A stretch of DNA of 64,000 bases from Ulota crispa. Taxonomy: Eukaryota > Streptophyta > Bryopsida > Orthotrichales > Orthotrichaceae. The DNA lies in contig OY987245.1 of NCBI GenBank assembly GCA_963920765.1, positions 498,501-562,500 of the forward strand, read 5' to 3'. Numbering within the stretch: position 1 is the first letter of the stretch; the number at the start of each line of letters is the position of its first letter. Made by a program: the position numbers and the translations under genes. This document shows positions 6,387 to 59,812 of the stretch, in pieces. The notes beneath the pieces are model-generated. The model had not been told where the DNA came from. It saw only the letters and a list, made by a program, of their open reading frames with translations, and ran no database searches.

Positions 6387-7734
6387 TTAACCCCTAAAGT
6401 TCTAAACATTCCTTTTTGGCAATGTAACAATTTTGGGCAACTCACTACCAATGGGTTTTTCATTTTTTTTCTTTGAAAATTTTACACATGATGTGTCCAA
6501 GGAGTAGTTCACCCAATAATTTATCATAACTTTTGACTTCATGGTTCAAAAGTTATTGCATGATCTATACTTTTCTTTGCTCGACAAGTAGTCTGAGCAC
6601 CTCAAATAACTTCATTAAAATTTATATTTTTTGAATTTTGTTTTTTGAAATCAGTTCTTTAGATTTATGTTTACATGGAAAGTTTTAAATCATTCCATTT
6701 TGATCAATGAGGTGAAAGTTATGAGGAGATTTTCTTTGTAGGCACTTATGGATTCTCCAAGAGAGGAAAAATGAGCTCAAGAGAAGGCCCCTATGGGAAG
6801 TGGTTGGAGGGGTCAAAAGCATTTAAATGTAATGTCCTTTTTCAAATAAGAAGAGGCTAATACCCTATACCCACTTACAACTACTTCATGAAAGTAATTT
6901 TTTTTACAATATCATATGCTTTTTGTTTGATGAGTGTCTTGTTTGATTGGGAATTCTAGTCCTAGTTTATTCTTGTGTCCCACAAAAGGTCCTTGCATTT
7001 GTCATTGTCATGTTATAATATTGTTTTCCACCATCAATCCTTTTGTTATGTACCATGGTACATTTGAGTACTTCACACAAGGTAGAGATCCTTGAGTAGG
7101 TACCTTACGTATGCTTCTCCTACCTCAATAAATAGAGTGGTTTGTCAAGGTGTAGGGGCCTTCTCTTGAGCTCATTTTTCCTCTAATGTACTCTAAAATA
7201 AACTTTTGAGTCCTTCCTCAATTTTCAATATTTTGGAGAAAAAACAAAACCAAAAGATGTAAATAGTTTACCACAACATTGTCACCATTGGGATTGGAGT
7301 TTTTAAGTTTTTGACAATTTTGTGGTTTGAATCATTCTCTAATTCTTTTTACTAACTATTTTTTTCCATGTGTTTTACAATTCTAAATGATTTGTGAATT
7401 TTCAAGTGTGTATTTGACTTGCTTTGAAGAAAAAATCCAAGAAATTACAACCATTTTAAAATACAAATTCATACAAATATGACCTTGTGAAGTGCGGCTG
7501 CTCGGATTTTTGTTGAGATAAAAAATGGCTTTTTGTCAATTCAAACTCAAATATCATACAATCTACATGGTGAAAATTTCTGAAACTTTTTCCACATCTT
7601 TTTATACAAGTGTATTACAAGATCTTATGACTACATTTGTCACAAAAAAAAATCTAAAATTTGAATTTTGTACTAGAAATGATAGTTTTGGAGCAATTTT
7701 GGTGAAAAACTTAGCTTAGGACTTAAGAGGTTAA
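6387..7734 (+). mobile_element. A1: TTAA-flanked element, type A
   Basis: It starts TTAACCCCTAAAG and ends AAGAGGTTAA. The interior matches A2 and A4 in order: an early GCAATTTTGGGCA-like block, ACACATGATGTGTCCAAGGAG, the module with TTTGATCAATGAGGTGAAAG, ACCATTGGGATTGGA, and a right part ending TTTTGGTGAAAA. It is 1348 bp because a separate inverted-repeat element occupies 6762-7184. The open frame at 7525-7719 is inside the repeat and is not a gene. Confidence 0.8.
6762..7184. mobile_element. Inverted-repeat element nested in A1
   Basis: A perfect terminal inverted repeat of about 30 bp begins AGAGGAAAAATGAGCTCAAG and runs on to GGCCCCTA. Its complement ends the element at 7184. The 423-bp insert interrupts A1 at the point where A2 and A4 read ATTCTCTACTCTAAA without a break. 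The perfect ends suggest it is younger than A1. Its target duplication is unclear and it has no coding content. Confidence 0.8.
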
Positions 7735-8307
7735 GGAAGTATGGGACCATTGGATTAGAGAAGATTTGGACCAAAAACTATAAGTTAGTCCTCTAATAGC
7801 TAAAGGAGAATTAGTCAAGTTTATAACTTAGATTTATAGACATTAATGTTCTAGATTTTATTCCGTAAACACAAGTAGTTGAAGCGGTACCAAGTACTAT
7901 ATGTTATTATTTATCATAATTTTTTCAAAGGAAAATCTTTGTGATTTTCAATTTCGAAGGCCTATTTACATTAGCAAACATGACGCATTTTCGTGATTGA
8001 GGTTTTGTCTTTTTCTTAGATACAAGTTCAAGCCAACGCACTTACTATCCCCTGAAAAAGTTTAACCACCCAACTCAGGAGATTAAAAAAAAAAAAAAAA
8101 AAAACAATCAGAGGTCACACCTACACTCGGGTAAAAATAAAAATAAAAAATAAAAAAATGGATTTTAAATGTTTCTTATCGTTTGTAAGTCAAACTAGTT
8201 TCACACAAATACAAGTATGGCGTCAGTTGATGCCAAACACTAATCACATTTTTTGAACCACTGATATAGTGACACGTGCATCCCTTTCAATTTTGGCTGA
8301 ATGGCAT
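7735..8307. other. Spacer with poly(A) tract
   Basis: AT-rich spacer. A run of about 25 adenines lies near 8080-8104, followed by an A-rich AAATAAAAAT stretch to about 8157. This could be a retroposon tail or simple-sequence drift. No associated body was identified. Confidence 0.5.
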
Positions 8308-8309
8308 GT

Positions 8310-8953
8310 GTACATGTAGTTTACCCTATTATCATTGGGTCTTATCATTGGGCCTTAGACAAAAAATCAATAAAAATATAGTTATAATATATCAAATGAC
8401 CTAGGTATGGTCTCATTTGAAAGATAATCAAGTTAAGGTTTTGTATCAAGTTCCAAATTCCTAGATGAGTGGAGTATGAAATAGTTATCAAGGTTACAAT
8501 GAGGTAAGGTCATGGTTCAACTTAAATTTGAAGTTGCCCTATTATCACTTCCTTACCACTTCCATAGAGATTTTCATTGTCATACATGATAATATTTTGT
8601 CATTTTCATCTTTGAACTTCTTCTTCCTTTCCTTGACCTCTATGGTCATCCATAAGTGCTAACTTAATTGACAATTTTCATTTATTTTTTATTTTTTGCA
8701 ACTGACATTGCTTTAGCTAAGGCGCTAGGGCAATAAATTGTATATCTAACTAAGGTCTTCGTAGCTAGTACACTATATCTTTTGCAAATTTTGGTCAGAT
8801 GGAACAAAAATTTCACAAGCAGTAAAGGACTCTAAGGCCTTTCTTGCAATACTTGTAAATTTGGATTTGAAACTAAACTCTAAAAGACATGAATTTTTGA
8901 AGATAGAAAAGTGATAACATGAGCGGAGTGATAATAGGGTAAACTACCTGTAC
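8310..8953. mobile_element. Terminal-inverted-repeat element, unassigned
   Basis: The left end GTACATGTAGTTTACCCTAT and about five more bases are mirrored by the complement of 8929-8953, with one mismatch in about 25 bases. It is 644 bp long. The interior is not self-complementary and has no open frame of note. The target duplication is not clear, so the superfamily is open. Confidence 0.7.
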
Positions 8954-9465: not shown

Positions 9466-11456
9466 GGATATGTTCACACTTGGTCTTAACCCCTAAAGGA
9501 TCAAGCCCCCTTTTTTAGCAACATAGCAATTTTGGGCAGGTCCCTGTGATTGGAGATTTTCATATTTTAGCTTAAAATTTTAATAGACTGTGGGAACAAG
9601 GTTTATCTTTCATATGCACCAAATTTCATAACATTTGAAAGTATGAATAGGAAGATATGGCCTAATATATATATTTTTTCACTTAGTTGGCAGCCTAGGC
9701 AAATTTTTAAAAATAATTTTTTTCAGAAACAAAAATCTGAAATTGGTTAATGAGGCTTATGTGGATGTGGAAAGCTTTAAATCATTTTGTTTTGATCAAT
9801 GAGATGAAAGTTATGAGGAGACTTTGTTTGCAGGCAGTTATGCAGATTCTCTACTCTAAAATAAACTTTGAGGTCCTTTATTTTACTCAATTTTCATTAT
9901 TTTGGAAAAAATACAAAACAAAAGGATGTATATTGTTCATCACAACATTACAACCATTAGGATTGGCATTTTTCATTTCTTGAATAAATTCTTAATAATT
10001 TTGTGTTTTGAATCATTCTCTACTTATTTTTACTTACTATTTTTTTCCCATATGTTGTATAATTCCAAATGGTTTGAATTTTTGTACATGTACCCTACTT
10101 AGGCAAAATAAGTAATCTAAAGAAGGACCACCAATACGGCCTTTTTTCCTTAGGAATTTTACCTTCTGAAGGGTAGCTGCCCAATTTTTAACAAGACACT
10201 ACTGAATATTCAAGCCATTCTATCTTCCAATCCATGTAGTGGATAATATTGAATATTTTTCCAAATTTTCTCAAACTATCTTGGTACAAGATCCTACAGT
10301 TACATATTCATAGAAATGTTTTTTTTCCAAATTTGGTTGATGCTCTAAAAATGGCACCTTTGGAGAGTTTTTGGTGAAAACACTACTTGATCCTTTAGGG
10401 GTTAACCCCTCATTGACTAAGGGGACAGTGTTTGTCCTCTAGCAGTCCATCATTATAACTTGAAGTTTTGTAACTTTTGTAATTGTTGTCCAAATTTAGT
10501 AAAATTTGTTGATAAAGTTGCACATACTAGTCTAGTTTCTATTATAGAATTTTCATATCAATTTAAGACATATTGAGTTTGTGAAAGCCATTCAAAATTT
10601 AGAGGGTTTATCTAAGTTCACCACAGTGCATTGTGATGGCTACAACTTTGGGGCTTGTATATTTTTCATCAAATGTTTATTTTCAATAAAATTTGTTTGG
10701 TTTAGTTCTCCTTAAAGTTGAGTAATTGTGGTACAATTTCCATGTCAATCCAAGTTTTTTTGAATGTTTGAGGGCAACTCAAAGTTCAAAATCCACCCAT
10801 TTTTGCATTGCACTAAACTTTGGTGGCTTATAACTTCTTGGAAAAGTTGTGCATACGAGTCTAGTTGCTGACTTGCTATGGTTAAAATTTCATATCAATC
10901 CAAGAAGTTATGAGTGAATGAGAAGCATTTTAGTAGAAGGAGGTTTAGCCATAGATGTGATTTTTTGCTGCTTTTTTCATTGTTTTTTGACATTTCAAAA
11001 CAATTTTGCAAATAAAATGAGTATATTGATTGAGGTTTTCTTTCACTAATGTGTTTGCATATTGGTTTGCATCACTTTGCATTTTTTTTTTTTTTTTCAT
11101 TTGAGTAGGTTTAGAAATGAAATTTCACCTCCAAACATATTTTTAATAAAATTCAGCATCTTTTATTAGCACTAAATCATCATAATCTTGCAATCTATGT
11201 GGTCAAATGACCCCAAATTTGATTCACATCATCTACAACATGCACACTACAAGATTGTACGGTTGAGATTTTTATACTCCACTAACATTGAAACTTATGA
11301 CACTTGAAAAGCAAGAATGCCCTAAACCCTCTTTGGACCTTGGGCGGTGAGAGATTAAGAGTGGTAGTAGCAAAGAAAAATTTGGTGCATTTAAATACAT
11401 CTTTAGACTGCATTCATATTCCTAATACCCTCCTAACACCAAGTGTGAACATACCC
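9466..11456. mobile_element. Harbinger-like element carrying A2
   Basis: The ends are GGATATGTTCACACTTGGT and, as complement, GGGTATGTTCACACTTGGT. Both are flanked by TAA (9463-9465 and 11457-11459), the 3-bp duplication made by PIF/Harbinger transposases. With A2 (9486-10405) removed it is about 1.07 kb. No transposase frame is visible, so it is non-autonomous. Confidence 0.72.
9486..10405 (+). mobile_element. A2: TTAA-flanked element, type A
   Basis: A 920-bp uninterrupted type-A copy from TTAACCCCTAAAGGATC to GATCCTTTAGGGGTTAA, with near-perfect ends. It lies 20 bp inside the left end of the Harbinger-like element, directly after CACTTGGTC, so it inserted into that terminal repeat. Its interior gives the reference order of type-A modules. 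The frames at 9750-9983 and 9902-10102 are incidental. Confidence 0.85.
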
Positions 11457-11459
11457 TAA

Positions 11460-11788: not shown

Positions 11789-12512
11789 TTAACCTCTAAA
11801 GGACCACTTGTTCCTACAAGGGACAAATGGAATTTTGGACATGTACTTATGGTTAAATTATTTTGTGTAAATTTTTGAAACTTTTATGGATGGGGAATTC
11901 AAAGATCTATGTGGGCATCTATTTTTTTCCTCATTCCGATATTTACTAAAGAAGTTAAAAACAAATTTATGATAATTTTTGTTCAGGGCAGCCCAAAAAC
12001 TTCTTTAAAAGTTGTATTTTCTTAAAATAAAAATTTGAGGTTAGTTCTTTAAACTTACGTATATATGGGAAGCTTTGAATCATTCAATTCTAATTGATGA
12101 GATAAAAGTTATGAAAAGTTTTAGTTTGTGTGTAGGCATAGTTCTGAGATTTTCCACACCAACCCGCAAACTAAAACTTTGCATAACTTTTATCTCATCA
12201 ATTAGAATTGAATGATTCAAAGATTCCCACATATACATAAGTCTAAAGAACTAACCTCAAACTTTTATTTTAAAAAAATGCAATTTTTAAAGAAATTTTT
12301 GGGCTGCCCGTTGAACTAAAATTCTCATAAATTCATTTTTAAATTCTTCAATAAATGTCAGAATGAGGAAAAAAAATAGATGCCCACACAGACATTTGAA
12401 TTTCCCATCTTCCATAAAAGTTGCAGAAAATTAAAGAAAGTAGTTTAGCCATAAGTACCTGCCCGAAATCCCATTTGTCCCACGTAGAGACAAGTGGTCC
12501 TTTAGAGGTTAA
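11789..12512. mobile_element. B1: long foldback TTAA element
   Basis: The left arm from 11789 and right arm to 12512 are inverted complements over about 345 bp each, around a loop of about 30 bp near 12135-12165. The ends are TTAACCTCTAAAGGACC and GGTCCTTTAGAGGTTAA. Each arm carries the module shared with type A, recognised by ATTCAATTCTAATTGATGAG. A transcript across it would fold into one long hairpin. There is no coding capacity: the frame at 12421-12663 simply follows one arm outwards. Confidence 0.88.
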
Positions 12513-12723: not shown

Positions 12724-12815
12724 TTAATCCTTAAACGCCCACGGGGACAATTTTTGTCCCCGGCAAATACACTGGGGCCGTGTATTTGCGGGTATACTTG
12801 GCGCTCAAGGGTTAA
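12724..12815. mobile_element. P1: 92-bp miniature TTAA element
   Basis: It begins TTAATCCTTAAACGCC and ends GGCGCTCAAGGGTTAA. The interior is almost all hairpin: GGGGACAATTTTTGTCCCC and then CGGCAAATACACTGGGGCCG followed by TGTATTTGCGGG. It is one of the two smallest complete members. The ends resemble type D (GCGCCC next to the TTAA end) more than type A. Confidence 0.7.
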
Positions 12816-13467: not shown

Positions 13468-14366
13468 TTAACTCCTAAACGCACTGTAAGGCACCAAAAT
13501 GGGGTGATGAATAAAATTTGAAACCTGGCCAAAGATAGAGATTTTATTCTTTTTACATTTTTTTGAAGAAACTGCAGTTTGAAGTTAGCTTTGATGTTCG
13601 ATTTTAAAATCCTCCATTCTAATTACTAATTTTTTTGGTGGAAGTCAAACTATAAGCATGCCTCTTGTGCACCAAAAAGTGTAATGAATAGTGTCACTTT
13701 AGAGCCTATGACAAGTTGCCGCATTGGAAAAATGGATAGCAAGTTGAGAATACAATGAAGATCTCCTTTGGGCACCCCCAGCCCCATGGGCAACGTAGGC
13801 AATTCTATTGAAAATTCATCATCAAATAAAGTCCAAATGTGTTTCTAGGCTAATTCACTTGGAATGTCTTTGTTATAGAAGTTGTAATTTATTCAAAATT
13901 GCATTCTCTTCCATTCACAATGATTTTTGGTCAATTGGAGCTAAAAAAATATTTGTATTAGGTGGTAGCATTTTGACAATTGCATTGCAGGCTCATTTGT
14001 GAAATTATGGTCATGAATTTGGAAGGGAGATCATAGTTTTGAAGTAACAACAACAATACTAAATCATCATAAGTGGTTGTTTCCCACTTTACACACAAAA
14101 ATTACCATTTTTGCATTGAAAATCTAGAGCAGCTAAAAAGAAACCAAAAAAATCATACTTTTCCACATTTAATCACAAATATCTTAAAATCCATGTGATA
14201 TTTTTGGAGGTTTTTTTTGATAGCACCATCTAAAAGCCTTAAAGTTGAAGATCCCACGGTTACAATTTTATCTTGATGTTTAATAGTGATCTTACAAGAA
14301 CAATTCAAAAACTTCAAAACTGCCTTCCAAAAACAAGAAAAATACCCTCAGGCATATAGGGGTTAA
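13468..14366 (+). mobile_element. C1: TTAA-flanked element, type C
   Basis: 899 bp from TTAACTCCTAAACGCAC to GGCATATAGGGGTTAA. It aligns with C2 (49153-50050) throughout. Shared landmarks are the GGGCACCCCCAGCCC/GGGCACTCC region, AAATCATCATAAGTGGT and TAGGTGGTAGC. The plus frame at 13808-14002 lies inside and has no recognisable domain. Confidence 0.82.
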
Positions 14367-15831: not shown

Positions 15832-16808
15832 CAAAGTTTCAATTGCAAGCATTTGGTTCCAAAGTTTTTTCAAAGTCCAAAATCACTAAAATTGTATAGT
15901 TGTGAGTAGGAGATGCTAAAAACAACTCTTAGTGAAGTCTTTAGTGAACTCATAAGTCATAAAACTAACATGAGGAGTTCTTAAATAGTGAGATGGGGCA
16001 CTCAAAAATCATCATGTCAATCACCCAAAACCATCAGTTTCTCACCCATAACCATCACTTTCTCACCCATAACCAATTTTTTCCTATACCCGGCAATGAC
16101 TAACAAAATTATGTGTCATATTGGCCCGTAGGCAATGCCATTGGGGACCAACAATTGTTGTCGCAATAAGAAATACTTAGACACAACATATAAGGTAGGA
16201 GTATCCCTCTCCGTTAGTGTCCTTTTCCCAAACATAATGAATCATTGTAGATGATTCATTGGGATCTTTCCATTCTACTGGCTTACGTACGTCAGTAGAA
16301 ACCCAAAAGTATTGTTCAAGCAAAGCCACAAGTCTAATGGCTGCGTGGCTCTCTGCTTTGCACTGAAAGGCGCTTTTTTGCGGTTAGTCAACCTATGGCC
16401 TTGCATGCATTAGGCCAATTACGCAGTAATAGCCAATAAGCCTGAAGCACTTTGGCCTCTACTTGCTATGCTAGTGGAGCCGTATGGAATCAAGGCACCT
16501 TTTAAATGAAATGTCCACAATATAAAAAAAAATCCCCATTACCTACTTGTGTGAGCGATTCATTGACTGAAAATCTTTAAAAAATTGGTTATGGGTGACA
16601 AAGTGATGGTTTTGGGTGATTGACATGATGATTTTTGAGTGCCCCATCTCACTATTTAAGAACTCCTCAAGTTAGTTTTATGACTTATGAGTTCACTAAA
16701 GACTTCACTAAGAGTTGTTTTTAGCATCTCCTACTCACAACTATACAATTTTAGTGATTTTGGACTTTGAAAACACTTTGGGACCAAATGCTTGCAATTG
16801 AAACTTTG
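15832..16808. mobile_element. Large foldback element with ~240-bp arms
   Basis: The left arm 15832-16082 and right arm 16569-16808 are close inverted copies, for example AGTGAGATGGGGCACTCAAA and its complement. The left arm holds an extra 21-bp unit (TCTCACCCATAACCATCACTT-like, 16030-16075). The 490-bp spacer is richer in GC and has its own palindromes around GAATCATTGTAGATGATTC and CTGGCTTACGTACGTCAG. No target duplication was found, so this could be a foldback transposon or an inverted duplication. Confidence 0.75.
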
Positions 16809-18415: not shown

Positions 18416-18709
18416 CATGTTATTCATTAATTTGGGAAAACAATGGGTACCATTTTGTACCTCTCCAAAATTGTCATCTTAAATTAAATGAAGGAGGTCA
18501 CTTGAAACCTAGTTAATGAATTTTTGTTTAAAATTTTAGAAGGTAATGAATATTTTGTCTAAAACAAGCGTAATTCTAGAAGATATATATGAATCTTATT
18601 TCATTGGAAAACAGTCAATGGATTCTCAATTCAATAAATATGGCATTTTTTGGAAAAAAAAGCCAGAAGTCCCACTTTGTACGCTTTTTCCCAAATTAAA
18701 AAATAAAAA
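18416..18709 (-). mobile_element. H1: TTAATTTGGGAAAA inverted-repeat element
   Basis: The left end CATTAATTTGGGAAAACAAT and the right end GCTTTTTCCCAAATTAA are complementary. Its interior in reverse orientation aligns with H2 (38729-38948 plus 40518-40599), including ATGAATTTTT/ATTCATTAACTAGG and AAGTGACCTCC. It is uninterrupted and therefore shows what the A3 target in H2 looked like. Confidence 0.7.
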
Positions 18710-19908: not shown

Positions 19909-20635
19909 TTAACCCCTAAAAGACCACTTGTCCTTATGTGGGACAAATGGGATTTTGGGCATGTACTTATGGCTAAACTACTTTGTGTAAATTTTTGAAA
20001 CTTTTATGGAAGATGGGGAATTCAAAAATATGTGTGGGCATCTATTTTTTTCCCCATTTTGACATTGATTGAAGAATTTAAAAATGAATTTATGGGAATT
20101 TTTGTTTGGAGAGCAGCCTAAAAACTTCCTTAAAAATTGTATTTTCTTAAAATAAAAATTTGAGATTAGTTCTTTAGACTTACGTATATATGGGAAGCTT
20201 TGAATCATTCAATTCTAATTGATGAGATAAAAGTTATGAAAAGTTTTAGTTTGTGTGTAGGCATAGTTTTGAGATTTTCCACACCTACTCGCAAACTAAA
20301 ACTTCTCATAATTTTCATCTCATCAATTAGAGTTGAATGATTCAAAGATTCCCACATATACATAAGTCTAAAGAACTAACCTCAAATTTTTATCTAAAAA
20401 AATGCAATTTTTAAAAAAGTTTTTGGGCTGCTTGCCAAACTAAAATTCTCATAAATTCATTTTTAAATTCTTCAATAAATGTCTGAATGAGGGAAAAAAA
20501 TAGATACCCACACAGACATTTGAATTCCCCATCTTCCATAAAAGTTGCAGAAAATTTTACAAAATAGTTTAACCATAAGTACCTGCCCGAAATCCCATTT
20601 GTCCCAGTAGGGAGAAGCGGTCCTTTAGGGGTTAA
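19909..20635. mobile_element. B2: long foldback TTAA element
   Basis: 727 bp, a near copy of B1 over its whole length, with arms of about 345 bp. It runs from TTAACCCCTAAAAGACC to GGTCCTTTAGGGGTTAA. The two arms differ at scattered positions, some matching B1, so the palindrome is ancestral to the family and not a local duplication. Confidence 0.88.
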
Positions 20636-22963: not shown

Positions 22964-23694
22964 TTAACACCTAAAGGCCCAAGTGGCCCTTAGGGACCAA
23001 GTGGGATTTTGGGCATGTATTAATAGCTAAATTATTTTGTGGGATTTTTTGAGATTTTTATGGAAGATGGGAAATTCAAAAACCTGCATGGTATTTAATT
23101 TTTTCTTCATTCCAACATTTATTGAATAAGTTAAAAATGAATTTCTACAAAATGGGGGAGGGCAGGCAACCCAAAAACTTCTTTAAAAATTGCAATTTTT
23201 AAAATAAAAATATGAAACAGGTTCTTTAGACTTATATACATGTAAGGAGCCTTGAATCATTCAATTTTGATAAATGAGATGAAAGTTATTAGAAATTTTA
23301 GTTGGCCAATAGATATAGTTTCTCTCAAAAGTTAAAACCACACCTATTTGCAAACAAAGACTTCTAATAACTTTCATCTCATTTATCAAAATTGAATGAT
23401 TCAAAACTCCTTACATGCATATAAGTCTAAAGAACCAATTTCATATTTTTATTTTAAAAACTGCAATTTTTAAAGAAGTTTTTGGGCTGCCTGCCTTGGC
23501 GCCCTCCGCCATTTTGTAGAAATTCATTTTTAACTTATTCAATAAATGTTGGAATGAAGAAAAATTTAAATACTCATGCAGGTTTTTGAATTTCCCATCT
23601 TCCACAAAAGTCTCAAAAAATCCCACAAAGTAGTTTGTACATGCCCAAAACCCCATTTGACCCCTAAGGGACTACTTGGGCCTTTAGAGGTTAA
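22964..23694. mobile_element. B3: long foldback TTAA element
   Basis: 731 bp from TTAACACCTAAAGGCCC to GGGCCTTTAGAGGTTAA. It is more diverged from B1 and B2 than they are from each other, but keeps the long arms and the module with ATTCAATTTTGATAAATGAG. The right arm has an extra GGCGCCCTCCGCC segment near 23497. Confidence 0.85.
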
Positions 23695-24024: not shown

Positions 24025-24238
24025 TGTTAGTTTCCATGTCTGTAAACATTGGAGATTTTTTAACAATTTGCAAATATTTTTCTTGATAAATGTGCATCTT
24101 ATAATTTGGACATATCTCCAAATAACTTTTGCAAGCATCTTCTAGTGTTTGCAAATCAAAACAATTTTTGGATTATTGATTTATTTCCTCTTAGAGTCAA
24201 AGTCACAGGTAGGAAGGACTCATTTCATAATGACACAT

Positions 24239-24989
24239 CATGGTTGTCACATAGGACCGCCTATCCGTCTGCTTGCTAGTACGCCCAAAGTGTCCAATTG
24301 AGGTCATTGTCCATAAAAATAAGTCAACTCAAAGTTGACTTAAAAAATGGTACAAAATAATAATAAAAAAGCTTACTTTGTACATGTTGGTGACACTCAT
24401 TGTTGCCAACATAGAGTCAAAACGTGAATTCAAAACCATATCACCAAGAGATGTCTTATTGACAGATTTTGGGATCTAGTTGTTGTTTTGTTTGTGTGAC
24501 ATCTAATGTTGCGCATGACAAATGTCAAGTACGCATGACAGTTTTGTGTAATAAGGCCATATTTAACAGCTAAGATAATTTGAAACTTTACTATAAATAT
24601 GACCAAAAATTTAGAATCTAATAAGTGTTTATTGAATTGAGATACTTCAATAAAATGAAACATTAATAACTTAGTATTTAAGATTGGGAATAGAGAGTGT
24701 TTTATTTGAAAGTCAACCTTAAAATTAACTTTACTATATAGACAAAGATACTCTTGTCTATTCATGATGTTGTGTTTGTTGAGTTGTCACCATGTCAGAA
24801 AAGATAATATCATTATCATGATATCACGTAAAAAAATGAAAAATGGTAATTTGATTCTTCCATTTTTAGGTCAAAAACCCTAAAAATGCCCTAAAAATAC
24901 AAGAAGATAGACATGTCTATTTGTGTTGTTTTTTTGTGTGTCCACTTGTGCTGTCCGACAACCAAAACTTGCCCAAAGTAACAACCATG
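24239..24989 (+). mobile_element. I1: hAT-type element with nested J1
   Basis: The ends CATGGTTGTCACATAGG and complement CATGGTTGTTACTTTGGGC are flanked by TGACACAT and TGACAAAT, an 8-bp duplication with one difference. The interior aligns with I2 and I3 (CTCATTGTTGCCAAC, TTCCATTTTTAGGTCAAAAA) except for the J1 insertion at 24446-24819. 8-bp duplications are the hallmark of hAT transposases. No transposase is encoded. Confidence 0.82.
24446..24819 (+). mobile_element. J1: Mutator-type element nested in I1
   Basis: It is absent from the paralogous positions in I2 and I3. It is flanked by CATATCACC and GATATCACG, a 9-bp duplication with two differences. It aligns in reverse with J2 (63308-63664), sharing TGTTGCGCATGACAA and AATAAGTGTTTATTGAATTG-like blocks. 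The minus frame at 24430-24765 is incidental. Confidence 0.72.
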
Positions 24990-25069
24990 TGACAAATTGA
25001 AAAAGGGTGATGGCAAAATTAGGAAACCCAAAAAGAACTGCTTAAGCCTAATTTGGTCTTATCTATGAT

Positions 25070-40775: not shown

Positions 40776-41143
40776 CATGGTTGTTACATTGGGCCGCTTG
40801 TCCGTTTGCCCATCCGTTTGCCAGAAGTGCCCGATTGAGCTCATATCCATCTGATGTGGTCAACTCATAGTTGACTTCAAAAAATTGTACAAAATGCTAA
40901 AAAAATTTACTTTGTACATGCTAGTGATACTCATTGTTGCCAATATGAAGTCAAAATGTGGATTTAAAGCCATATCATGTGATAAAAATGAAAAATAATA
41001 ATTTGATTCTTCCATTTTTAGGTCAAAAACCCTAAAAATGGTCATAAAACTATGAGAGGGCAGACACGCCCACCCGTCCTGTCTTTTTTGCTTGCTCAAC
41101 TCTCCCGTCCAATAGCCAAAAATTGCCCGATGTAACAACCATG
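40776..41143 (+). mobile_element. I3: hAT-type MITE
   Basis: 368 bp with ends CATGGTTGTTACATTGGGC and complement CATGGTTGTTACATCGGGC. It is flanked by a perfect 8-bp duplication TTACTACC (40768-40775 and 41144-41151). It interrupts C3. The clean duplication and near-perfect ends make it one of the younger insertions here. Confidence 0.92.
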
Positions 41144-41512
41144 TTACTACCCAAAGAAGCACCCAAGGGAAATCCTCACCTTTTGCTCAACTTGATGCCC
41201 GTTTTTTCAATGTGGCAACTTCTCATAGGCTTTGAGACACTATTCATGACACTTTTCATGATACTATTCAAGACTCTATTCATAACACTATTCACAACAA
41301 AAAAATGTATGCTTGTAATTAACCTTCCACCAAATACAATGAGAATAAGATGTGGATGAAATTAAATTTGAACAATGAAGTTAATTTTAGAGTGCAACTT
41401 TTCCAAAAAAAAAAACTTGAAAATAATAAAATCTGTGCCTTCAACAAGGTTTCAAAATTTCATAAAATTTTTTGAACACCAAAATCTGATGCTTTAAGCA
41501 TTTATGGGTTAA

Positions 41513-42960
41513 ATTGCACCAACAATTGGGCCGTAGTATAATTATAGAGAATAACCCATTCTTCACATTTTGTTTTTTTATTTCTTTTTATATGCTTGAG
41601 GAAAATCAGCACCAGACTTCCACTTTCTGTAATCAGTTCCAAGACCGCGTACCCTGGGTTGCTCAGGGGCGAAGCAAGCAATGACTAACTGAATTAGCTA
41701 TGCAGGGCTCAGAAACATGCTAAAGACGGCCTCGTGTCCATCAGCTACGCTTGCATGGAAACGTTGCCTTTGCATGAGCCATTGGGTTTTCTACAGACAG
41801 AAAGTGAGGCTACTGGGCGGCATGATTAACAAAGCCTACAACGTGGGGAATTGGGAGAGCTAGATCCCGTCTCTGCGGGTAGGAGTTCTGTTCTCGAGTG
41901 TGAGCGCCATGGGGGCAAGGGCATTGGGGCATGGCCTCCAGGGATTGGGAACCTAGTTGAACATCACAGGCTTAACTTACTACCTTAACTTACTGGACTT
42001 CACCGCATTTGATAGCCGGTCAGTCAGAAACTAACTCTCGGCTTCTCCAGATCATCTGTCCTCCCCCTCAGACAGACAGCTGCGCCACTACGGCACTTGT
42101 CTTGTTCCTTCGTTGGTGCTGCCACACGAACCGACGAGTGCATGCAGCAGGTAAGCAAAAAATCGGATAGAATCATCCACCTGTGTACCTTCCTTCTTTT
42201 CGTTCTGCTGCATCTGTCGCTGTGGTTATTAGGGTTTCCAAGCTGGACATCCCTGATCGTTCGATAGGCCTTCTTTTTTTTTGGCTTTTAAACTGTGCAG
42301 TTTCTGCAGCAGAAAATCACTGTTCTTTCATGCAGGATCTGGCTCTCTCATGCACAATCTGGTTCTCTCATGAAAAGATCAAACAGTTTTCTGCACCTCA
42401 ATTGGTTGAGAGAATTTCACCGCAGTGAGATTTTTGGCGACAAGAAATCACCAGATAGCATAGAATTTCTATTTTCTAAACTTCTGTGCGCAATTAGGAT
42501 CCACCTCTTGCGAGAAAGGACGCAAAAAGCCGTTTTGGAGAGAGAGTTAGATTTTGAGTGAGAACCGAACAGTGAGTGAGTCGTTTGAAACTCACTATTC
42601 GTAACTTCCAGCTCCTTGCCCATAGCGTGGCGATCCCAATGTTCCTCTGAGAGGGGTTTGGCAAAAACACCCATTCTTTCACTCCGTTTCTTTTTAGCAT
42701 TGAGGTAGGCTTTGCCAGAACAATGGAGGATTCTGGCAGAAACTTGTCTCCCAAGAATAATAGATTTACATCACCAGATTCCTAGAAACCTACCCCGCGT
42801 GACTGGAGAGATAACTTATCTTCTCATTTTCCGAAACGTCATGAACATCCGGCATTCCACGTGGGCCTCTGTGTGAGTCAGGCAAGGAATAAGCATTCGA
42901 AATTCGAAGAAATCCCAGACACCCTTGGCCCCCGACACTCTGCGGTCTTTGCTACCATTC
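41513..42960. other. GC-richer island
   Basis: From about 41610 the sequence becomes more complex and free of window repeats. Frames on both strands at 42183-42754 (81-88 codons) overlap one another. A local duplication TCTGGCTCTCTCATG / TCTGGTTCTCTCATG lies at 42339-42374. No protein is recognised. It is candidate unique host DNA, ending where D2 inserted after CTACCATTC. Confidence 0.42.
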
Positions 42961-43541
42961 TTAACCCCTGGACACCCAGGCTATTTTCATCAAATCAGGG
43001 TTTTGGGAGACCTATCACTTTGATGCATCATATCTCAGTCAATCAGATGATACACAAACATTGACCACTGAAAATAGTTAAACACTATCCTAAAAAATGG
43101 CTAACCTAAAAATGGCTTGCAAATTTTGGTAATAATTCACCATGGGAGATGGGAGATTATAACATTTGATCAAACAACACGTGATGGCAAAAACTTAATT
43201 TTTAGCAAATAGTTGCTGTTTAATGTTTTTACAAAATTCTATAAACCACATTCATCTCAATTCTTTTGAGTAACAAAATTAGATGTAAATGCACACACTT
43301 GCAAATAATTGAACATTTGACTTCTTTGTGTATTAAAATTTAAGGCTTTGAACAATTTTGCTAAAACAATTATTAGCACAATTGGTGAGGGTTGCTACAA
43401 CAAGGGTTTTGAACATGCTTGAACCCTTGATGGATTTTGCCCTACCACAAAGCACATGCAAGGAAGCTTGCAATGAGTACTAATTAGTTGTAGCTTGTAA
43501 GGCATTGCTTGCTACCACTCCTAGTATGGTGTTTCACCCAA

Positions 43542-44686
43542 TTAACCCTTTAAAGACCATGCAACCTTATTTTGGTCGCAAGGACTGGTTTTTGACTTAT
43601 AGATTGAAATCACTTAGTAATTGGGTATTTGGTCATGAAGAAAGCATGGGATCACAAAATTTTTTGTATCCATCTGAAAAATAACAATGGAATTGGATAT
43701 GTGAGTTGACAAATCAATGGTGTCTATACATGATGGCTTCAAGATACGTATCCATTTTTTGTCAAAGATGGATTAAAGCAACAACACAATACATTAAATA
43801 TGTAAGAAGAATTTCAAATTTCAATAGCATAGTCCTAAAAAATTTCAAAGTGCATAAGAAATACGCTTGTATTGTTTTCCTGTATAGTAACAATATATTT
43901 GTAGTATTTGAAGATCTATTGAAACGGTCTTGTCATTTCATTTTTAAAATTTGTCATCCTATATTTAAGGCCAATTCTTGATTGTTTTCACCAATCAAAT
44001 TTTCCATAATAGTTATCAAATTTCTTGTAGAATTGTTTTAAGGTAGCAAAGAAAGTGGGATTTTTGACCTTTTTTGTTCACTTTGCTACACCTTCGGATT
44101 GCTATTTTTGTCTATTTTGTGTAAAACTAATCTTGTTGGGAAGGTGGGAAACCTTGCTTTCCAGAAATGTAAGGCTCTTCTCAATCAAAGCTTGCATGAA
44201 GCATTAGCATTCAAAACCACACAAGCATGAAACACTAGAGATTTTTTGCATACGGCTCATTCAATCATTATGATATTTCACATCCAAAGGTAAATCTAGC
44301 TAAATTTTGATGCCTTACAACAAACAAAGTGTCCTTTGCATTCATATAGTTGGATTATTCAAACTAAGTTCATACTTAATTCAATTGCACATGTAAGTTT
44401 ACAGCTCTTGTTTTTAGTGGATTTTGTGAAAATGTGTGTGGTCCTTAACCCTTAAAGGACCATAGGGCATAGTATATACGTTGCCATATAATTGACATTT
44501 GATACCAATAAGAAGTTTTAATTTGCAATCTCAAGTAGCTCACTAGAACCATTTTGATCTATTCTCCAACTTCTTTGTTGATTTCAAATGTAGTAAAGGT
44601 GTGAATCTATTCCAAATACAAGAAAAACACCTTGTATTCTACGACTTGCAACAGCATACTCAGTTATTTAGGAGTTAAAGGATTAA
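43542..44686 (+). mobile_element. O1: TTAA element nested in D2
   Basis: It starts TTAACCCTTTAAAGACC, and its right terminus, with E1 removed, reads GGTCCTTAAAGGATTAA. These are inverted complements with one mismatch. It sits in D2 where D1 reads CCAATCAAGACTC, so TTAA (or a close variant) was the target. The 91-codon frame at 43706-43981 has no recognisable domain, so there is no transposase. Confidence 0.8.
44445..44678 (+). mobile_element. E1: short TTAA element inside O1's end
   Basis: 234 bp from TTAACCCTTAAAGGACC to TTATTTAGGAGTTAA. It aligns with E2 (56370-56611) throughout: TATAATTGACATTTG, TAATAAAGGTGTG-like and ATATAAGAAAAA-like blocks. It interrupts O1 just 8 bp before O1's end. 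The related end at positions 41-66 lacks it. Confidence 0.85.
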
Positions 44687-44844
44687 GGCTCTCAAGGCAC
44701 TTGTATAACATTTGGCTTGCCTTGCCATTATTCCACTTGCATAGAACACTTGAATGCCTTGATAATTGTAGTTTATAGCAAGGTCAAAAAATTAGATCCA
44801 ATACCTCAAATAGGCATGTGAAATCATGTGAGGGCCATTTTGGT

Positions 44845-45136
44845 TAGGGTTGTCCCCGTCATGTCAAGTTTGTCAGTCTAGATGTTTGGACGGATGTCAG
44901 GATTCACTCTCAGTGTCTGTCAAGATGACTCCGTCAACAAAACCGCAACAACTAATGAGAACTAGACAATTTAATGGACTTTTTAGTGGACGGTCTGGAC
45001 GGACTTGTCGTCCAATTGACAGACTTCATCCATGGCCGAGACGGACCGTTGGTTTAGGGGATGGATTGTGGTGGGTCACAACGCGTCACGACATGTTGAC
45101 TTGAAAAGCCCACGTCACGTTAGTTTTGCAACCCTG
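44845..45136. mobile_element. hAT-type element nested in D2
   Basis: The termini TAGGGTTGTCCC and complement CAGGGTTGCAAA are classic hAT ends. A perfect 8-bp duplication ATTTTGGT flanks it (44837-44844 and 45137-45144). D1 and the type-D consensus are uninterrupted at this point. It is GC-richer than its host, and the 84-codon frame 44850-45104 has no domain I know. Confidence 0.9.
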
Positions 45137-45163
45137 ATTTTGGTCCTCTAGGGTATTCAAGAG

Positions 45164-45953
45164 TTAACCCTCCTTGACGACCTTTATAGTGGAATTTTAG
45201 CCCATGAACACCCCAGCAATAGGCACCTCTTGCTGGGGATTTCATGGGGCTTTTTGAGGGTTTAGATCTAATTTTTTGATTTTGCTATGAAGTACAATTA
45301 TCAAGGTATTCAAGTGGTCCATGCAACTAGAATAATGGCAAGTCAAGTCAAATCTTGTACAAGTACCTAGGAAGTGTTGATTACATGGAACACCATAATT
45401 GGCAAGGTGGCAAGGAGCATTTTATAGGTTCCGATCGGTCAATATCCTTTGCAAGCTTCCTTGCAATGTGTTTTGTGGTAGTAAGGAATTCATTGGCAAG
45501 GGTTCAGATATGTTCTAGACCCTTGTCAAGGTAATTCTCACCAACTATGCTGGTCATTGTTTTCCGCACCATTGCAGTTTGAAACCCTCAAACTTAGCAT
45601 TCAAAGAAGTACAACCTTCAATAATTTGAAGTGTGTGCATTCACATCTAATCTTGCTACACACAAAATTTGAGATGAATCAAGGGCTTATAGAATTTTGT
45701 AATAATTAGTAAATAACAACTACATGCCAAAAAATAAGATTTTGCCATCATGTGTTGTTTGATCAAATGTTATAATCTCCCATCTCTCACAATCAATTGT
45801 TCCCAAAATTTGTAAACAATTTTCCAAGTAGATGTTCCGCTATTTTCAATAGTCACTTTTTGTGAATCATCTGATTGAATGCGGATATGATGCATCAAAG
45901 TTGCTCCCAAAACCCCCATTTTGGTGAAAACGACCTGGGCGCTCACGAGTTAA
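45164..45953 (-). mobile_element. D3: TTAA element, type D, inverted
   Basis: 790 bp from TTAACCCTCCTTGACGACC to GGGCGCTCACGAGTTAA. In reverse it aligns with D1 and D2, and it is uninterrupted. It is back to back with D2 and shares one TTAA with it. A hairpin CCCCAGCAATAGGCACCTCT followed by TGCTGGGG lies at about 45210-45238. Confidence 0.82.
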
Positions 45954-48054: not shown

Positions 48055-48984
48055 TTAATCCCTCAAGGACGAAAGGGTTTTTCAAAGAAACATGGTCAAA
48101 AACTGCGTTTTCTGGGTATGATGATCAAAAATGAAAATCATAATTTTTTTTAAAACTCAACCGTATAAAACTATAGTAAAATATTTATCCAATCTATACA
48201 AAAAAATTCAGTCCATTTGGCCACATGGATTGTAAGATTATAACAAATTTTTTTTCACTCTTGCAAAACAAGGTCAAGCGGTCAGCAAACATTGAGCCAT
48301 CTTGGAGTAAAATTTTTGCTCTACACAAAAATGAGGTTTTTGACCATTCATAAGTATGTGATGTGAGGTTCACTCATAAAAAAATTTAGAAGAAAATGTA
48401 AAATCCAACTTATTCTAAATTACCCTCCAATGCAAGATGGTTACATGAATTGGCAATACACTAGTCATAGTTTTATGATTTTTTGTGCAATGAGGGAGTT
48501 TTTTATTTGAGATTTGAATGATCAAATTTAAAGGTAAACATCTGAAATTATTTGAAAAATATCAAGAGTTTTGAATATATACATTGCAAGAAAATAGGGA
48601 TTGAAGTTAGAAGAAAATATTTTTTCTTGGAGTTGCCTAGACATAGTCAACAAAGTTTGACTCCTCTTAGAACGTGATTTGAGAGCTCATTATTATTATT
48701 TTTTGACAATTGTATACCATGTTTTATTAATTGCATACATGTCAAATTTCAAAAATTGATGAAAATTTTAGCATAAGATTCTCCAAAAATGCCCAAATTC
48801 AATTGGGCAACACAACTTTTGAATCGGACATCTAATTGAGAATTTTTTTTATTTTTCCACTTGGAGGATACATATTTACACCTTGCGTGACAATTTTTGA
48901 GAGCATCCAATAAAATTCACTTCATATGACTCTACTACCAAAGTTCTCAAGTGTCCAATGGACACTTGGACCTTTAGGGGTTAA
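48055..48984 (+). mobile_element. F1: TTAA-flanked element, type F
   Basis: 930 bp from TTAATCCCTCAAGGACG to GGACCTTTAGGGGTTAA. It aligns with F2 throughout: GTTCACTCATAAAAAAATT, GGCAATACACTA, GACTCCTCTTAGAA and GCATAAGATTCTCCAAA. No coding content. Confidence 0.85.
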
Positions 48985-49152: not shown

Positions 49153-50050
49153 TTAACTCCTAAATGCCTAAGGCACTCAAATTGGGAGTCTGGGAAAACT
49201 TGAGACCTTGTTGGAGGCAAGGATTTTTGTTTTTTGTTTTTTGTTTTATTTTGAGAAAGATAAGGTTTGAAAAAAGCTTAAATATCATATTTGATTTCCC
49301 TCCATACCATGTTCAAAATGTTTTTGGTGGAAGCTAAATTGCAAGCATGTCTCTTGTGCATCTTAAAGTGTGATGGATAGTATCACTAAAAAGCCTATGA
49401 TAAACTACCACATTGGAAAGACAAGTAGCAAGTTGAGATTAAAGTAAAAATTTCCCTTGGGCACTCCTTTGGGCAATCAAGGCTCTTTTACTAAAATCTC
49501 ATCATTTAAATGAGTTTTTGAGCTAGTTTCACTTGAAATGTTTTTTTTACACAAATCAGAATCTATTCTCCTTAAATTCTCTTTCATTCAAAATTATGTT
49601 TTGTCAATGATTGGTGCTAAACATTGTTTTTGTATTAGGTGGTAGCTCTTTGACATTTGCATTGCACATTCATTTGTGAAATTGTGCTCATGGATTTGGA
49701 AGGGAGGTCATTAGTTTTGAAGTAACAACAACATTCAAGTACTAAATCATCATAAGTGGTGGTTAATTTCTCAATTTTGTACTCAAAAGCTGCCAATTTG
49801 CATAAAAATTTTTGGGTGGCTACAAACAAAACAAAAATTGTACTCATCCACATTCAATCACAAATATTTTAACAAATTGCATGACTTTTGTAGAATTTTT
49901 TTTTTGCAAAACCACCTAAAAGCCTTGAAGTTCAAGATCCCAAGTTTACGTTTTTTTGTGAATATTTAATAATGATTACAACTACAATTCAAAAACTTCC
50001 AAAGTGCCTCCTTGAATTGAGAAAAGCACCCTTAGGCATTTAGGGGTTAA
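49153..50050 (+). mobile_element. C2: TTAA-flanked element, type C
   Basis: 898 bp from TTAACTCCTAAATGCC to GGCATTTAGGGGTTAA, uninterrupted, the same length and order as C1. The minus frame at 49635-49853 is inside it. The equivalent frame in C3 (38520-38717) differs by indels, so no protein is conserved. Confidence 0.87.
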
Positions 50051-53692: not shown

Positions 53693-54648
53693 TTAACCCC
53701 TAAAGCACGACAGGTGTTGCAGAGAAAAATAAGACCAAATCTGCCATTTTTTGATGATTCATTCAAAATTCAAATTAAAATTTGTTTTTTTGAGTTTCAA
53801 CCGTACAGCAGTGCAATATGCAAGTAAGACAATGTTTGAAAAAAAATTCAGCCCATCTGACCGTGTAGACTATAATGTTATAATGTTTGAAGTGAGAAAA
53901 ACAACTTTGTTACATTCTTGCAAAACAAGGTCAAGAGACTTTGAGCCCTTCTAAAGTAAATTTTTTGCTTTACACCAAAACAAATTTTTTGACCATTCAC
54001 AAGTATATGATATTAGGTTCACTCATAAAAAAATTCAAAAGCAAATATAGAATTTAGCTTATTCTAAATCACCATGTATAGCAAGGAGGTTCAGTGAATT
54101 GGCAATACACTAATCATTTTTCATGATTTCTTGTGCAATGAGGAAGTCTTTTATTTGAAATCCAAACGTTGAAAAGTTAGAGACAAACATCAAGAGTATG
54201 CAAGAAAAAATTAAGGAGCTTGGGATTCATAGATTGAAAGATGATAGGGCCGAAAGTTAGAAGAAAATGTCTTTTCTTGAAACTGCCCAAACATAGTTTA
54301 AAAAGTTTGACTCCTCTTAGAATGTGATGTGAGAGCTCATTTTATTTTATTTTGACAATTGTGTACCATATTTTATTAGTTACATACATGCAAAATTTCA
54401 GAAGTTAATGAGTGTTTTTGCATAAGATTCTCCAAAGATGCCCAAATTGCCCAAGGTGCCCAAGTTCTTTTGGGCATCATAACTTTTTACTCAAGCATCC
54501 AATTAAAGTTATTTTTTCTCACACAAAGGTATTCATTGTGTGCACCTTGTCTCCAAATTTAAAAAAACATCTGCCAAAAAATTACTTCATAGGAATTTAC
54601 CCAACTTTCAATCGATTGTTGAACAAACTCTTGTGGTCTAGGGGTTAA
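53693..54648 (+). mobile_element. F2: TTAA-flanked element, type F
   Basis: 956 bp from TTAACCCCTAAAGCACG to TGTGGTCTAGGGGTTAA. It is collinear with F1. The contained frames differ from those of F1, so no protein is conserved. Confidence 0.85.
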
Positions 54649-56369: not shown

Positions 56370-56611
56370 TTAACCTTTAAAGGACCAAGCTACTATGATA
56401 CATACTATGTATGCTGTTGTATAATTGACATTTGCTATCAACAAATGGTTTTAATTTGGGATCTTGACTACCTCACTTGAACAATATTGATCTATATTCT
56501 AATTTCTTTATTGATCTCAAATGTAATAAAGGTGTGGATGCACTCCAAATATAAGAAAAATACACCATATTGTACTAGTCACAAAGGGCTATTAAGTTGT
56601 TTAAGGGTTAA
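56370..56611 (+). mobile_element. E2: short TTAA element
   Basis: 242 bp from TTAACCTTTAAAGGACC to GTTGTTTAAGGGTTAA, collinear with E1. Confidence 0.83.
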
Positions 56612-58593
56612 AATTACCTTTACAAATACAATAAACCAACTTTTTGAAAGGCAAATTGATATAGATTCTTCAAAAAAAAAAAACAACTAGAAATTCACAT
56701 TGTAAACTTAAAAGAAAAAAACTCTTATTAAAAATATGTTGATTTGTGCATATTTAATTTTATCCCTAGTATTATGAATCCATTCTTTCTTCAAAATTTT
56801 GTCGCAATGCATTACATGTTGTAACTTGGATACAAGGACTCGGGGAGTGCATTCCCTTTTCTTTTTGGTACACGTGTAATCCGATGAAGGGTTATTATTA
56901 AAGTAAATTAGCATCATTAGAATGGGTTTGGGCTTTATATAAAGAAAGTGTAGTCATAGATTTATTATGAAGAATCTTAAAATGCTAAAACTTTTGTTAA
57001 TTTTCTGTTTTTCTATAGTAGTACTAGAATCTATGGATTAATTGTTAGCTTTAGTTATACTAAGAACTGATTAGTGAATCTATAGAACTCTAGTATCTAT
57101 AGCTAGCTGCTAAGGTAGTTATTCTAACCACTCTGGAGAAGGGGTAGAAAAGAGAAATCTATTGTAGAAAAAGGTGAGCAAGAGAGGCTCCAAGAGAGTG
57201 AGAGTTGGAGAGAGAAAGAACAATCGGGTCCTTTTATGTTTAGATGAAGCGGTTGAATGAATCAAAAAAATTGCATATTTGCTATAGTGTGTGCAGATTT
57301 CCTATTGTTGTTTGTGTATGTTATTTGTATTGAATTGATTGTGGATTGTGTATGAGTGCATGTTTGTATCTATGATTGTTGAAATGCCTTGAGTGTTGGA
57401 GAGTTAAACTAAAATTGATTGTGATTTGCAAATGTATGATTGAGGGTTGTTTGAGTTATGTGAATGATTTGGATTGGAATTCAATTGATAGAGCTTGTCT
57501 AGGAGATAGAGGAATCTATAGTTGAAATTAAGAGAATGTAACATCATATTAGGTAAATTGGGAAAAATAAAGGTACCATTTTTACTCCACCTCAAACCAG
57601 ATTCAAAAGCATCAGATTCAGTCTAAGCCATTAAGATTTTTTCTCTCACACATTCCTCCTCTCAAGTGAGGGCACGTGTACAAAAAAAACCTTGGAGCTT
57701 GGTCTGGGGTGATCACCCCAAACCCAGAAGTCCCAAAATATCCACTTTTGCCCAATTTACCTAATATCTCGATATGTATGTTTATATTTTCTAGTGATTG
57801 ATTTTATGTGTGTGATTCATTTGAGATTAAATGTGATATGTGAATGCTTGGTCTATTGCAATTTATTTTTATAGTTATTGTGAGGCTTGGGTTGAGTCTA
57901 TAGATTTGGGATTGAGAGAAAAGTGAATACGAAAATCAATTGTGTTTGGTTAAGAGAGTGAAAGAAACTGATAGTTGAATTAAGGAAATTTAATTGAGAA
58001 ATCAATAGTAATTCAAATGAAGGCCATAGAGATGAATTAAGTACAATAGTTTATCAAATGAGAATGTTTGAATAGAACCTAATTGTAATCTATAGATTTG
58101 GAAGATTAAAAAAGATTATTTCAAAGAAAGAGATTTCATATCTATAGAGAATGTTGTGAGAGTTTAAGTTTAAATCTATAATATCCATGGTGAGATTGAC
58201 AAAATGTCAATAGCCATTTATGAATAGGCTATGACTAGATAATTGAGAGTGATATATGAGAGTGATATAAAGCTGTGGCTATGAGGGCTGATTTGCATTC
58301 AATAGATGCTGAGTATGAATTTATGAAAGATATAGGATTGGAGTCTATAAAGAGAAATAATTCAGAGTGGATTAAAGTAGAGTGGATAACTATAGCAATT
58401 TCAGAGTGATTAATGAATAATCAATTGTGAGTTTCTAGAGAAGGAAGAACTAATTAGACTTTGTTGGATAATAAAAATGTGAGGATCACAGGGAGACGGA
58501 AAGGTGAAAGCATATTAATAATAATTTATGAGTACAAAGTATCCAACTCTATAAAACAACAAAGACATCTCTTAGACTAATCAAGAGATGTGA
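56612..58593. other. AT-rich region with recurrent TCTATAG words
   Basis: Between about 57030 and 58560 the words ATCTATAG, CTATAGA and GTCTATA recur many times at irregular spacing in purine-rich, weakly coding sequence. H3 interrupts it. No open frame is supported. It could be decayed LTR or other retroelement sequence, since the copia element lies just beyond. Confidence 0.35.
57546..57767. mobile_element. H3: H-type inverted-repeat element
   Basis: The ends ATATTAGGTAAATTGGGAAA and complement ATATTAGGTAAATTGGGCAA match almost perfectly. The interior aligns with the right part of H4 (CACCTCAAACCAGATTC, GGCACGTGTACAAAAAAA). Confidence 0.78.
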
Positions 58594-59812
58594 ACACCAT
58601 ATTCTTTAACCCCTAAAGGTCCAAACAGTGTTTTTTTGGTAACATAGCGATTTTGGGCAGCTCACTACAAATGGATTTTTCATTTTTTTTCTTTGAAATT
58701 TTCACACATGATGTGTCCAAGGAGTAGCTTTAAGGCCCAACAAATTTCATAACTTTTGATTTCATGATTCAAAAGTTATTGCATGATATGTAGTTTTCTT
58801 TGTTCGGGGGCAGCTTGGGCAGCTCAAAAAACTTATTTAAAAATTACATTTTTGGAATTTTTTTTTGAAATTGGTTCTTTAGATTTATATATACTTGAGA
58901 AGCTTTGAATCATTCAATTTTCATCAATGAGATGAAAGTTATGAAGAGATTCTATTTGCGGGCAGTTATGGATTCCCTACTCTAAAAAGAACTTTTAAGT
59001 CCTATGTTTTACTCAATTTTTAATATTTTGGAAAAAAAAATAAAGCCAAAGTATGTAGATTGTTTATTACAACATTTTGACCATTGGGATTGGAATTTTC
59101 ATTTTTCATAATTAAATTCTTAACAATTTAGTGTTTTGTATCATTCTCTACTTCTTTTTACTTACTATTTTTTTCCTATGTGTTATACATTTCCAAATGA
59201 TTTGAAAATTTTCAAGTATGTACCTGACTTGCCTCAAAGAATGAATACAAAAAATTACAACCATTTTGAAACTTTTTTCATACAAATATGACCTTGTGAA
59301 GTGCGGCTGCCTAGACTTTTGCAAGGACAAAAAACAACTTTTTGTCAATTCAAACTCAATCACCTAACAATCCACATGGCAGAAATTTCTGAATTTTTTC
59401 CACATCTTTGGATACTAGTGTACTACAAGATCTTACAGTTAGATGTGTCTAAAAATAACTTTTATCTAAAATTTGATGCTTGCACTACAAATGGCAGTTT
59501 TGGGACAGTTTTGATGAAAACATAGTCAAAAGCCTTTAGGGAGGAAAAAATAGGTGTCCCACTTTGTACTCCTCCTTAAACCCAAAAAGTTACCTTAAAC
59601 CAGATTTGAAGGTATTAGATTCAATCTAAGCCACTAAAAGCCACTAAGATTTTTCCCCTTGCAAATTCATCATCTCAGGTGAGGACACGTGTACAAAAAA
59701 AAATGCTAAGCTTGGTTTTAGGTGATCACCTAAAGGCTAAATCCTTCACCTCAAAATTTGAAAGTCCCAAAATGTACCGTTTTTCCCAAATTAACAGATA
59801 TGGTGTTTGTGA
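58594..59812. mobile_element. H4: H-type element split by A4
   Basis: The right end (complement) is ACACCATATCTGTTAATTTG, and the left end at 58594 reads AACACCATATTCTTTAA, where A4 begins. The body resumes at about 59545 with GGAAAAAATAGG, with the TTAATTTG portion lost at that junction. It aligns with H3. Confidence 0.72.
58606..59545 (+). mobile_element. A4: TTAA element, type A, in H4
   Basis: It begins TTAACCCCTAAAGGTCC and is collinear with A1 and A2 to TTTTGATGAAAAC. It ends AGCCTTTAGGG, directly joined to H4 sequence. The expected right TTAA is missing with a few flanking bases. The contained frames at 59148-59525 are incidental. Confidence 0.8.

Follow-up and report, generated by a model that had tools for sequence, protein, structure and literature searches.

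Introduction

piggyBac is a cut-and-paste transposon best known from insects. Kolobok also targets TTAA, and TTAA targeting by itself does not separate the two superfamilies. We analysed a 64-kb stretch of Ulota crispa DNA (assembly GCA_963920765.1, contig OY987245.1, positions 498,501 to 562,500, forward strand), hereafter the window, in which an earlier sequence-only reading had recognised a set of TTAA-bounded elements and tentatively assigned them to piggyBac. Our analysis indicates that these are almost certainly non-autonomous piggyBac transposons of a bryopsid moss, mostly derived from larger elements by internal deletion.

The Cys-rich domain of piggyBac binds a palindromic repeat of the left end centred near bp 25 (PMC7351741). 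Native insect piggyBac with two left ends (LE35/LE35) shows neither excision nor integration in human cells, while the hyperactive form excises and integrates LE35/LE35, to a lesser degree (PMC7351741). As for plants, a review names PiggyBac among the angiosperm superfamilies of miniature inverted-repeat transposable elements (MITEs) (PMC10004981), a survey places it among the superfamilies present in every group surveyed (PMC4438587), and a beetle study calls its plant occurrences occasional (PMC12732532). A literature search, covering mostly titles and the openings of abstracts, returned no report of piggyBac dominating a land-plant genome. A Niphotrichum moss paper was discarded as a piggyBac record, the matched word being "piggybacking". 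The sequence-only reading had called a dominant TTAA family in a plant notable; PiggyBac as such is already listed for plants, and it is the dominance for which we met no report.

Results

Exact termini of the form TTAAnYCYTRAR occur 23 times in the window (13 on the + strand and 10 on the - strand), against a chance expectation of 2.2 in a first-order Markov model and 1.43 in a second-order one (maximum 5 in 100 runs). Seven of the + strand termini have an exact - strand partner 60-1600 bp downstream, where the second-order model expects 0.01. Self-alignment of the window reveals many copies whose similarity ends at TTAA, for example 11789-12512, 19909-20635 and 22964-23694, which align mutually. 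From the self-alignment and the terminus search we picked 16 TTAA-bounded intervals, some holding nested copies and two, shorter than 100 bp, being weak; together they cover 16,865 bp, or 26.4% of the 64 kb, which agrees with the earlier estimate of about a quarter. At least two further elements, 38949-40521 and 43542-44686, are nested within intervals, so that the earlier count of about 20 is fair. The intervals 38297-41512 and 42961-45953 are composite, and the full length of each is not one element. The earlier observation is borne out, except that the right TTAA is lost at the 58606 element and that the right TTAA of 38949-40521 has become TTTA. Rfam models gave no match in the window at gathering thresholds.

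A profile search of the genome with PF13843 (DDE_Tnp_1_7) gave 120 matches, the best at 1.3e-73 (528 candidates, of which 116 were scored); the same profile matched nothing in a set of 14 control genomes. No internal stop is present in ten of the matches listed. The first piece of the transposase at locus L033 matches the profile at 2.6e-59. When a 368-residue transposase piece was compared with 5.8 billion proteins, 17 relatives were found at E ≤1e-5, the best-scoring one 45% identical over 98%, and a mollusc protein (34% identity) among them. In the Protein Data Bank, this piece matches piggyBat (1.7e-16) and piggyBac (3e-13) in alignments that pair the first and second catalytic Asp residues; the third is paired in the match of the downstream L033 piece to the piggyBac structure (2.5e-4). 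Thus, for L033, whose two pieces were searched apart, three Asp columns align with structures 6x67 and 9c0f; we take these columns to be the catalytic triad of piggyBac. The C-terminal tail of L033 is Cys-rich, its alignment to 9c0f not being significant. A search for accessory genes with one frame upstream of the L033 transposase gave no Pfam match; in X36 and X37 the long frames that precede the transposase resemble diverged N-terminal parts. At L040 (1891-5138; C1:1177200-1184500) the transposase appears to be divided among three open exons, which together hold the three catalytic motifs; the left end of this element was not found. Separately, identically scoring inverted piggyBac matches lie about 15-20 kb apart at C7:18203169/18223004 and C2:36765124/36779670, and represent either recent palindromic duplications or assembly artefacts.

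The elements that carry these transposases are long. No TTAA pair reached the match thresholds in 20 short loci, and inverted repeats inside them were rejected as element ends, being hairpins on one side of the domain that do not bracket it. The short loci lacked end pairs because the elements are longer than expected, and wider stretches revealed the ends: in 8 of 13 extended loci (L029, L031, X32, L033, L034, L035, X36 and X37) an element of 5.0-8.8 kb with TTAA-CCY termini encloses the transposase, and five of these (L031, X32, L033, X36 and X37) have an exact window-type terminus at both ends. The L029 element (1863-6889, TTAA on both sides) is 90.5% identical to L030 over 5 kb; the alignment breaks at the TTAA ends of L029, the left TTAA of L030 not being intact. 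X32 measures 8,033 bp, including a nested 926-bp copy (617-1542 in L032) that is 69% identical to window element 48055-48984 and 80% to 53693-54648. Four loci, X32, X36, X37 and L033, combine exact window-type ends, DNA similarity to window elements and the DDE_Tnp_1_7 domain. They support the piggyBac assignment and, found via PF13843, are full-length copies with the same ends of the kind that the sequence-only reading had suggested looking for. Judged by their sequence, several window families are end-plus-end derivatives of these four parents.

The left and right ends, the left one being defined as that upstream of the transposase, differ in architecture. We pooled the 8 left and 8 right ends in a test for the palindromic internal repeat that piggyBac has at bp 17-33 of its left end, with a shuffled null and the centre given in PMC7351741; since palindromes had already been seen in these ends, the test was not blind. 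The left ends score 39 for symmetry at bp 24-25 (shuffled mean 21.6; reached in 0 of 2000 shuffles), and the right ends score 19 (null mean 23.2), that is, no palindrome. Single left ends score 8 (X36), 7 (X32), 6 (L029), 5 (L033 and L034), 4 (L035) and 2 (X37 and L031); tested singly and without a fixed centre, the palindromes of L029 and L034 are not significant. Conversely, AAACTGCCATTTT or a similar motif near bp 42, noticed after the fact, is present in 6 of the 14 right ends shown and in 0 of 20 left ends.

X32 interrupts an L033-type element and is flanked by TTAA on either side; three related, uninterrupted copies have a single TTAA at this place: window 14184-14187 (no strand, identified by flank comparison), window 38392-38574, which carries a small indel just past the TTAA, and L033 160-337. 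The alignment is less clean for a fourth relative at window 49961-49784. For 43542-44686, the related empty site (32310-32503) shows one TCAA; 38949-40521, a fourth such insertion and one found by eye, is bordered by TTAA/TTTA, and its empty relative shows one TTCA. At X32 2217-3012, TGAA/TTAA in the filled site corresponds to one TTAA in the empty site, and the TGAA is read as a mutated copy of TTAA. One TTAA in empty sites versus two in filled ones indicates that TTAA was there before insertion and was then copied, as the assignment to piggyBac had presupposed. Since TTAA is palindromic, the empty sites by themselves would also be compatible with only two or three of its bases having been duplicated; it is the identity of the transposase, not the empty sites, that decides for piggyBac.

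These termini are abundant throughout the genome (274.8 Mb, 157 contigs), where the pattern TTAANYCYTRARG occurs 28,732 times (14,405 + and 14,327 -) and its reversed control 1,819 times (892 + and 927 -). The window holds nine such termini (6 + and 3 -), where an average 64 kb of the genome holds 6.7. When the 26.4% is adjusted by the control-corrected density, piggyBac-type elements come to about 18% of the genome, a rough estimate based on these nine termini. At the first eight genome loci, an inverted terminus lies 0.9-1.1 kb downstream in all eight, exact in seven; in the upstream control at the same loci, a - strand terminus with no more than one mismatch in its 8 positions was found in six, exact in two. 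As to the host, matK was found on contig C157 and on a stretch of contig C7. The best match of the plastid MatK is 94%, followed by Orthodontium (84%), Bartramia (83%) and Campylium (81%), and identity drops to 55% for Sphagnum and Takakia and to 42-45% for liverworts and a hornwort. By MatK comparison the host is a bryopsid moss, which makes the earlier description of the genome as plant-like more precise. The MatK frame on the 22-Mb contig (C7:6541578-6542525) has no stops and is probably a recent plastid insertion.

One family has an unusual end configuration. Elements 11789-12512 (84.9% identical to its own reverse complement), 19909-20635 and 22964-23694 (a diverged subfamily) are foldbacks without a strand, recognised by self-alignment, in which two left ends are inverted (LE/LE): both arms of each match the left end of X36/X37, and neither right end of X36/X37 has a match in the three. 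The palindrome is clear in one of the six foldback ends and degraded or weak in the other five. With 19909-20635 as query, the copies scored were the best 40 of 7,995 candidates, a selection and not a copy number, including the query and the 11789 copy; in their better orientation they span nearly the whole unit at 88-100%. The 25-base foldback end occurs 764 times on the + strand and 747 times on the - strand with ≤2 mismatches (control 0), a count that may include left ends from ordinary elements with a left and a right end (LE/RE). The list of 100 exact ends contains 15 plus/minus pairs spaced by 494-752 bp, and in 13 of these pairs the spacing is 721-752 bp; the remaining 70 ends lack an exact partner at such a distance in that list. 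Ten full-length copies have TTAA at 19 of 20 ends and TTGA at one, between flanks that are mutually unlike by eye.

The other window elements are as follows. Element 6387-7734 (+) is an X36/X37-type deletion derivative running from left to right end and retaining some 450 bp of the parent's interior (6762-7200); this interior is 85% identical to X36 8125-8573, and 7496-7738 resembles the X36 right end (60%). By self-alignment, 9486-10405 (+; left end 9486, right end 10405) belongs to the same family, with TTAA at both ends and the right-end motif AAGGTGCCATTTTT. Its relative 58606-59541 (+) ends ...CTTTAGGG/AGG at 59541. A further family comprises 48055-48984 (-; right end 48055, left end 48984), its probable orientation deduced from a palindrome that the 48984 end carries at bp 13-33, and 53693-54648 (-), with the right-end motif at 53693.

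Three elements derive from L033-type parents by their similarity to the L033 element. In 13468-14366 (+), the left end at 13468 is joined to the right end at 14366: 14366-13788 corresponds to L033 element 1-586 (79%, right-end side) and 13746-13468 to 5469-5746 (61%, left-end side). A genome search with it gave 1,945 first-look candidates, which is not a copy number; 40 of them were scored. In 49153-50050 (+; left end 49153, right end 50050), 50050-49468 corresponds to 1-589 (74%) and 49297-49153 to 5600-5746 (64%). Finally, 38297-41512 (-; right end 38297, left end 41512) is interrupted by a later insertion, its segments 38297-38739, 40602-40752 and 41377-41512 corresponding to L033 element 1-431, 415-563 and 5612-5746. 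The insertion that splits it (about 38728-40602) itself took up 38949-40521 (-; right end 38949, left end 40521), a nested derivative with X36/X37-type ends (74% and 66% for the right one, 81% and 78% for the left one), whose empty-site relative lies near 18491. The split-causing sequence is a different inverted-repeat element with ends TTATTTGTTAATTTGGGAAAA, present at 38728-40602 and 18491-18706, and was thus the target of a piggyBac derivative.

The remaining elements have no assigned strand. Interval 42961-45953 is a long foldback TTAA element with nested insertions, 42960-43550 being inverted relative to 45954-45372 (73%). The TTAA insertion 43542-44686 lies within it and contains the short element 44445-44678, to which the short TTAA element 56370-56611 is related by self-alignment. 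Element 31824-32997, with a GCGCCCA-type terminus and a right boundary placed from the terminus only, is a relative of 42961-45953. Two terminus pairs, 12724-12815 (92 bp) and 35192-35270 (79 bp), are weak candidates for minimal elements.

Other repeats are also present in the window. Direct repeats 1251-1824 and 3437-4008 (88% alike) resemble long terminal repeats and flank a 1.6-kb interior with an open frame without Pfam match. On the - strand, 59989-62213 contains pieces resembling a Copia-type retrotransposon, the second frame matching PF25597 and the first having no Pfam match. A hairpin at 15832-16808 has 223-bp arms, 98% complementary and 531 bp apart, and a dispersed repeat occurs at 24175-24993, 37006-37456 and 40676-41147 (70-78% alike among the three).

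Discussion

The most coherent account of the window is that most of its elements arose from piggyBac elements of 5-9 kb by internal deletion, which left about 150-600 bp at each end. A transposase encoded elsewhere in the genome would recognise these ends in trans and excise the derivatives, presumably seamlessly, and they would insert at TTAA, which is duplicated, probably as exactly four bases. Several piggyBac lineages each gave rise to their own swarm, with copies inserting into one another, and one abundant family, made of two left ends head to head, may have moved as an LE/LE unit.

Several observations weigh against this account. The transposase domains of L033, X32, X36 and X37 all contain stops, and none is shown to be active. 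Window-type end pairs lay within 1.5 kb of the transposase domain in 0 of 20 piggyBac loci, the ends being farther out, and in 5 of the 13 extended loci (L030, L038, L039, L040 and L041) both ends were not found. The ends of L031, L034 and L035 were placed by the motif pair alone, and X37 and L031 have no left-end palindrome. For the families 31824/42961 and 44445/56370 the search yielded no parent, and they have only the terminus and TTAA in common with the rest. The parents themselves were found through the PF13843 search only, other transposases with the same ends not being independently excluded. Moreover, 185 joined flank pairs gave just three interpretable insertions, most of the others being mispaired ends or self matches.

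The families without a parent, and a TTAA target that the superfamilies share, speak for the idea that Kolobok, or another TTAA-targeting superfamily, made the window elements and that piggyBac domains merely coexist in the genome. We consider this very improbable, as four full elements with window-type ends and homology to window families, found with the piggyBac profile, carry the piggyBac domain, and the left-end palindrome falls at the binding position of the piggyBac Cys-rich domain. MITEs of the Tourist-like (PIF/Harbinger) or Stowaway-like (Tc1/mariner) kind, duplicating 3 or 2 bp within TTAA-like surroundings, are a still more remote prospect, scarcely to be credited. Such MITEs have TAA/TTA and TA duplications, respectively (PMC10004981), and palindromic TTAA sites do fit a TA or TTA/TAA duplication in an invariant context; yet the transposase within the full same-ended elements recovered by the piggyBac search is that of piggyBac, and the architecture of the left ends is piggyBac-like.

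The foldbacks raise a separate question, namely whether local inverted duplication of LE/RE copies produced them time and again, without their ever moving as LE/LE units. The failure of native insect piggyBac to mobilise LE/LE ends (PMC7351741) speaks for such an origin. We nevertheless find it unlikely, given that the best 40 of the 7,995 candidates match nearly the whole unit, that 13 of the 15 listed exact end pairs share the 721-752 bp spacing, and that the ten copies stand between unlike flanks, nearly always at TTAA: copies at unrelated places share one internal junction, which speaks against their having arisen independently. An abundant LE/LE family in the moss, set against the inactivity of LE/LE in the insect system, suggests a transposase that tolerates LE/LE ends. 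That piggyBac has become a dominant genome component in this moss lineage, and that its transposase accepts two left ends, in part still with the palindrome to which the Cys-rich domain binds, is a tentative proposal that we regard as quite possible without yet favouring it. If true, the insect rule of unlike ends would not hold superfamily-wide, and LE/LE foldbacks would amplify by a separate route. With natural LE/LE families at hand, the need for unlike piggyBac ends can be tested directly on plant sequences, and this moss, in which several piggyBac lineages have diverged and termini number in the tens of thousands, offers a second view of end requirements. Bryophyte repeat annotation may also leave much piggyBac material unclassified.

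The category is already known in land plants; what is unexpected is the very high density in a moss and the unusual end configuration. Unlike Kolobok, the same-ended moss elements contain a piggyBac transposase. The parents resemble piggyBac of Trichoplusia ni and piggyBat in their DDE_Tnp_1_7 domain, Asp triad, TTAA target, CCC-rich termini, unlike ends and left-end palindrome near bp 25. They differ from both in their moss host, in the abundance of LE/LE foldbacks and in the apparent split of the L040 transposase into several exons. The eight delimited elements are also larger, 5.0-8.8 kb (partly from nested insertions) compared with 2.07-3.47 kb for intact beetle elements (PMC12732532). The density in the moss is far above the 0.00% PiggyBac given for the fern Ceratopteris (PMC6890710). 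Finally, the window elements are like the angiosperm MITEs filed under PiggyBac in being non-autonomous (PMC10004981), and they go beyond them in that the moss genome also holds transposase-bearing parents with the same ends.

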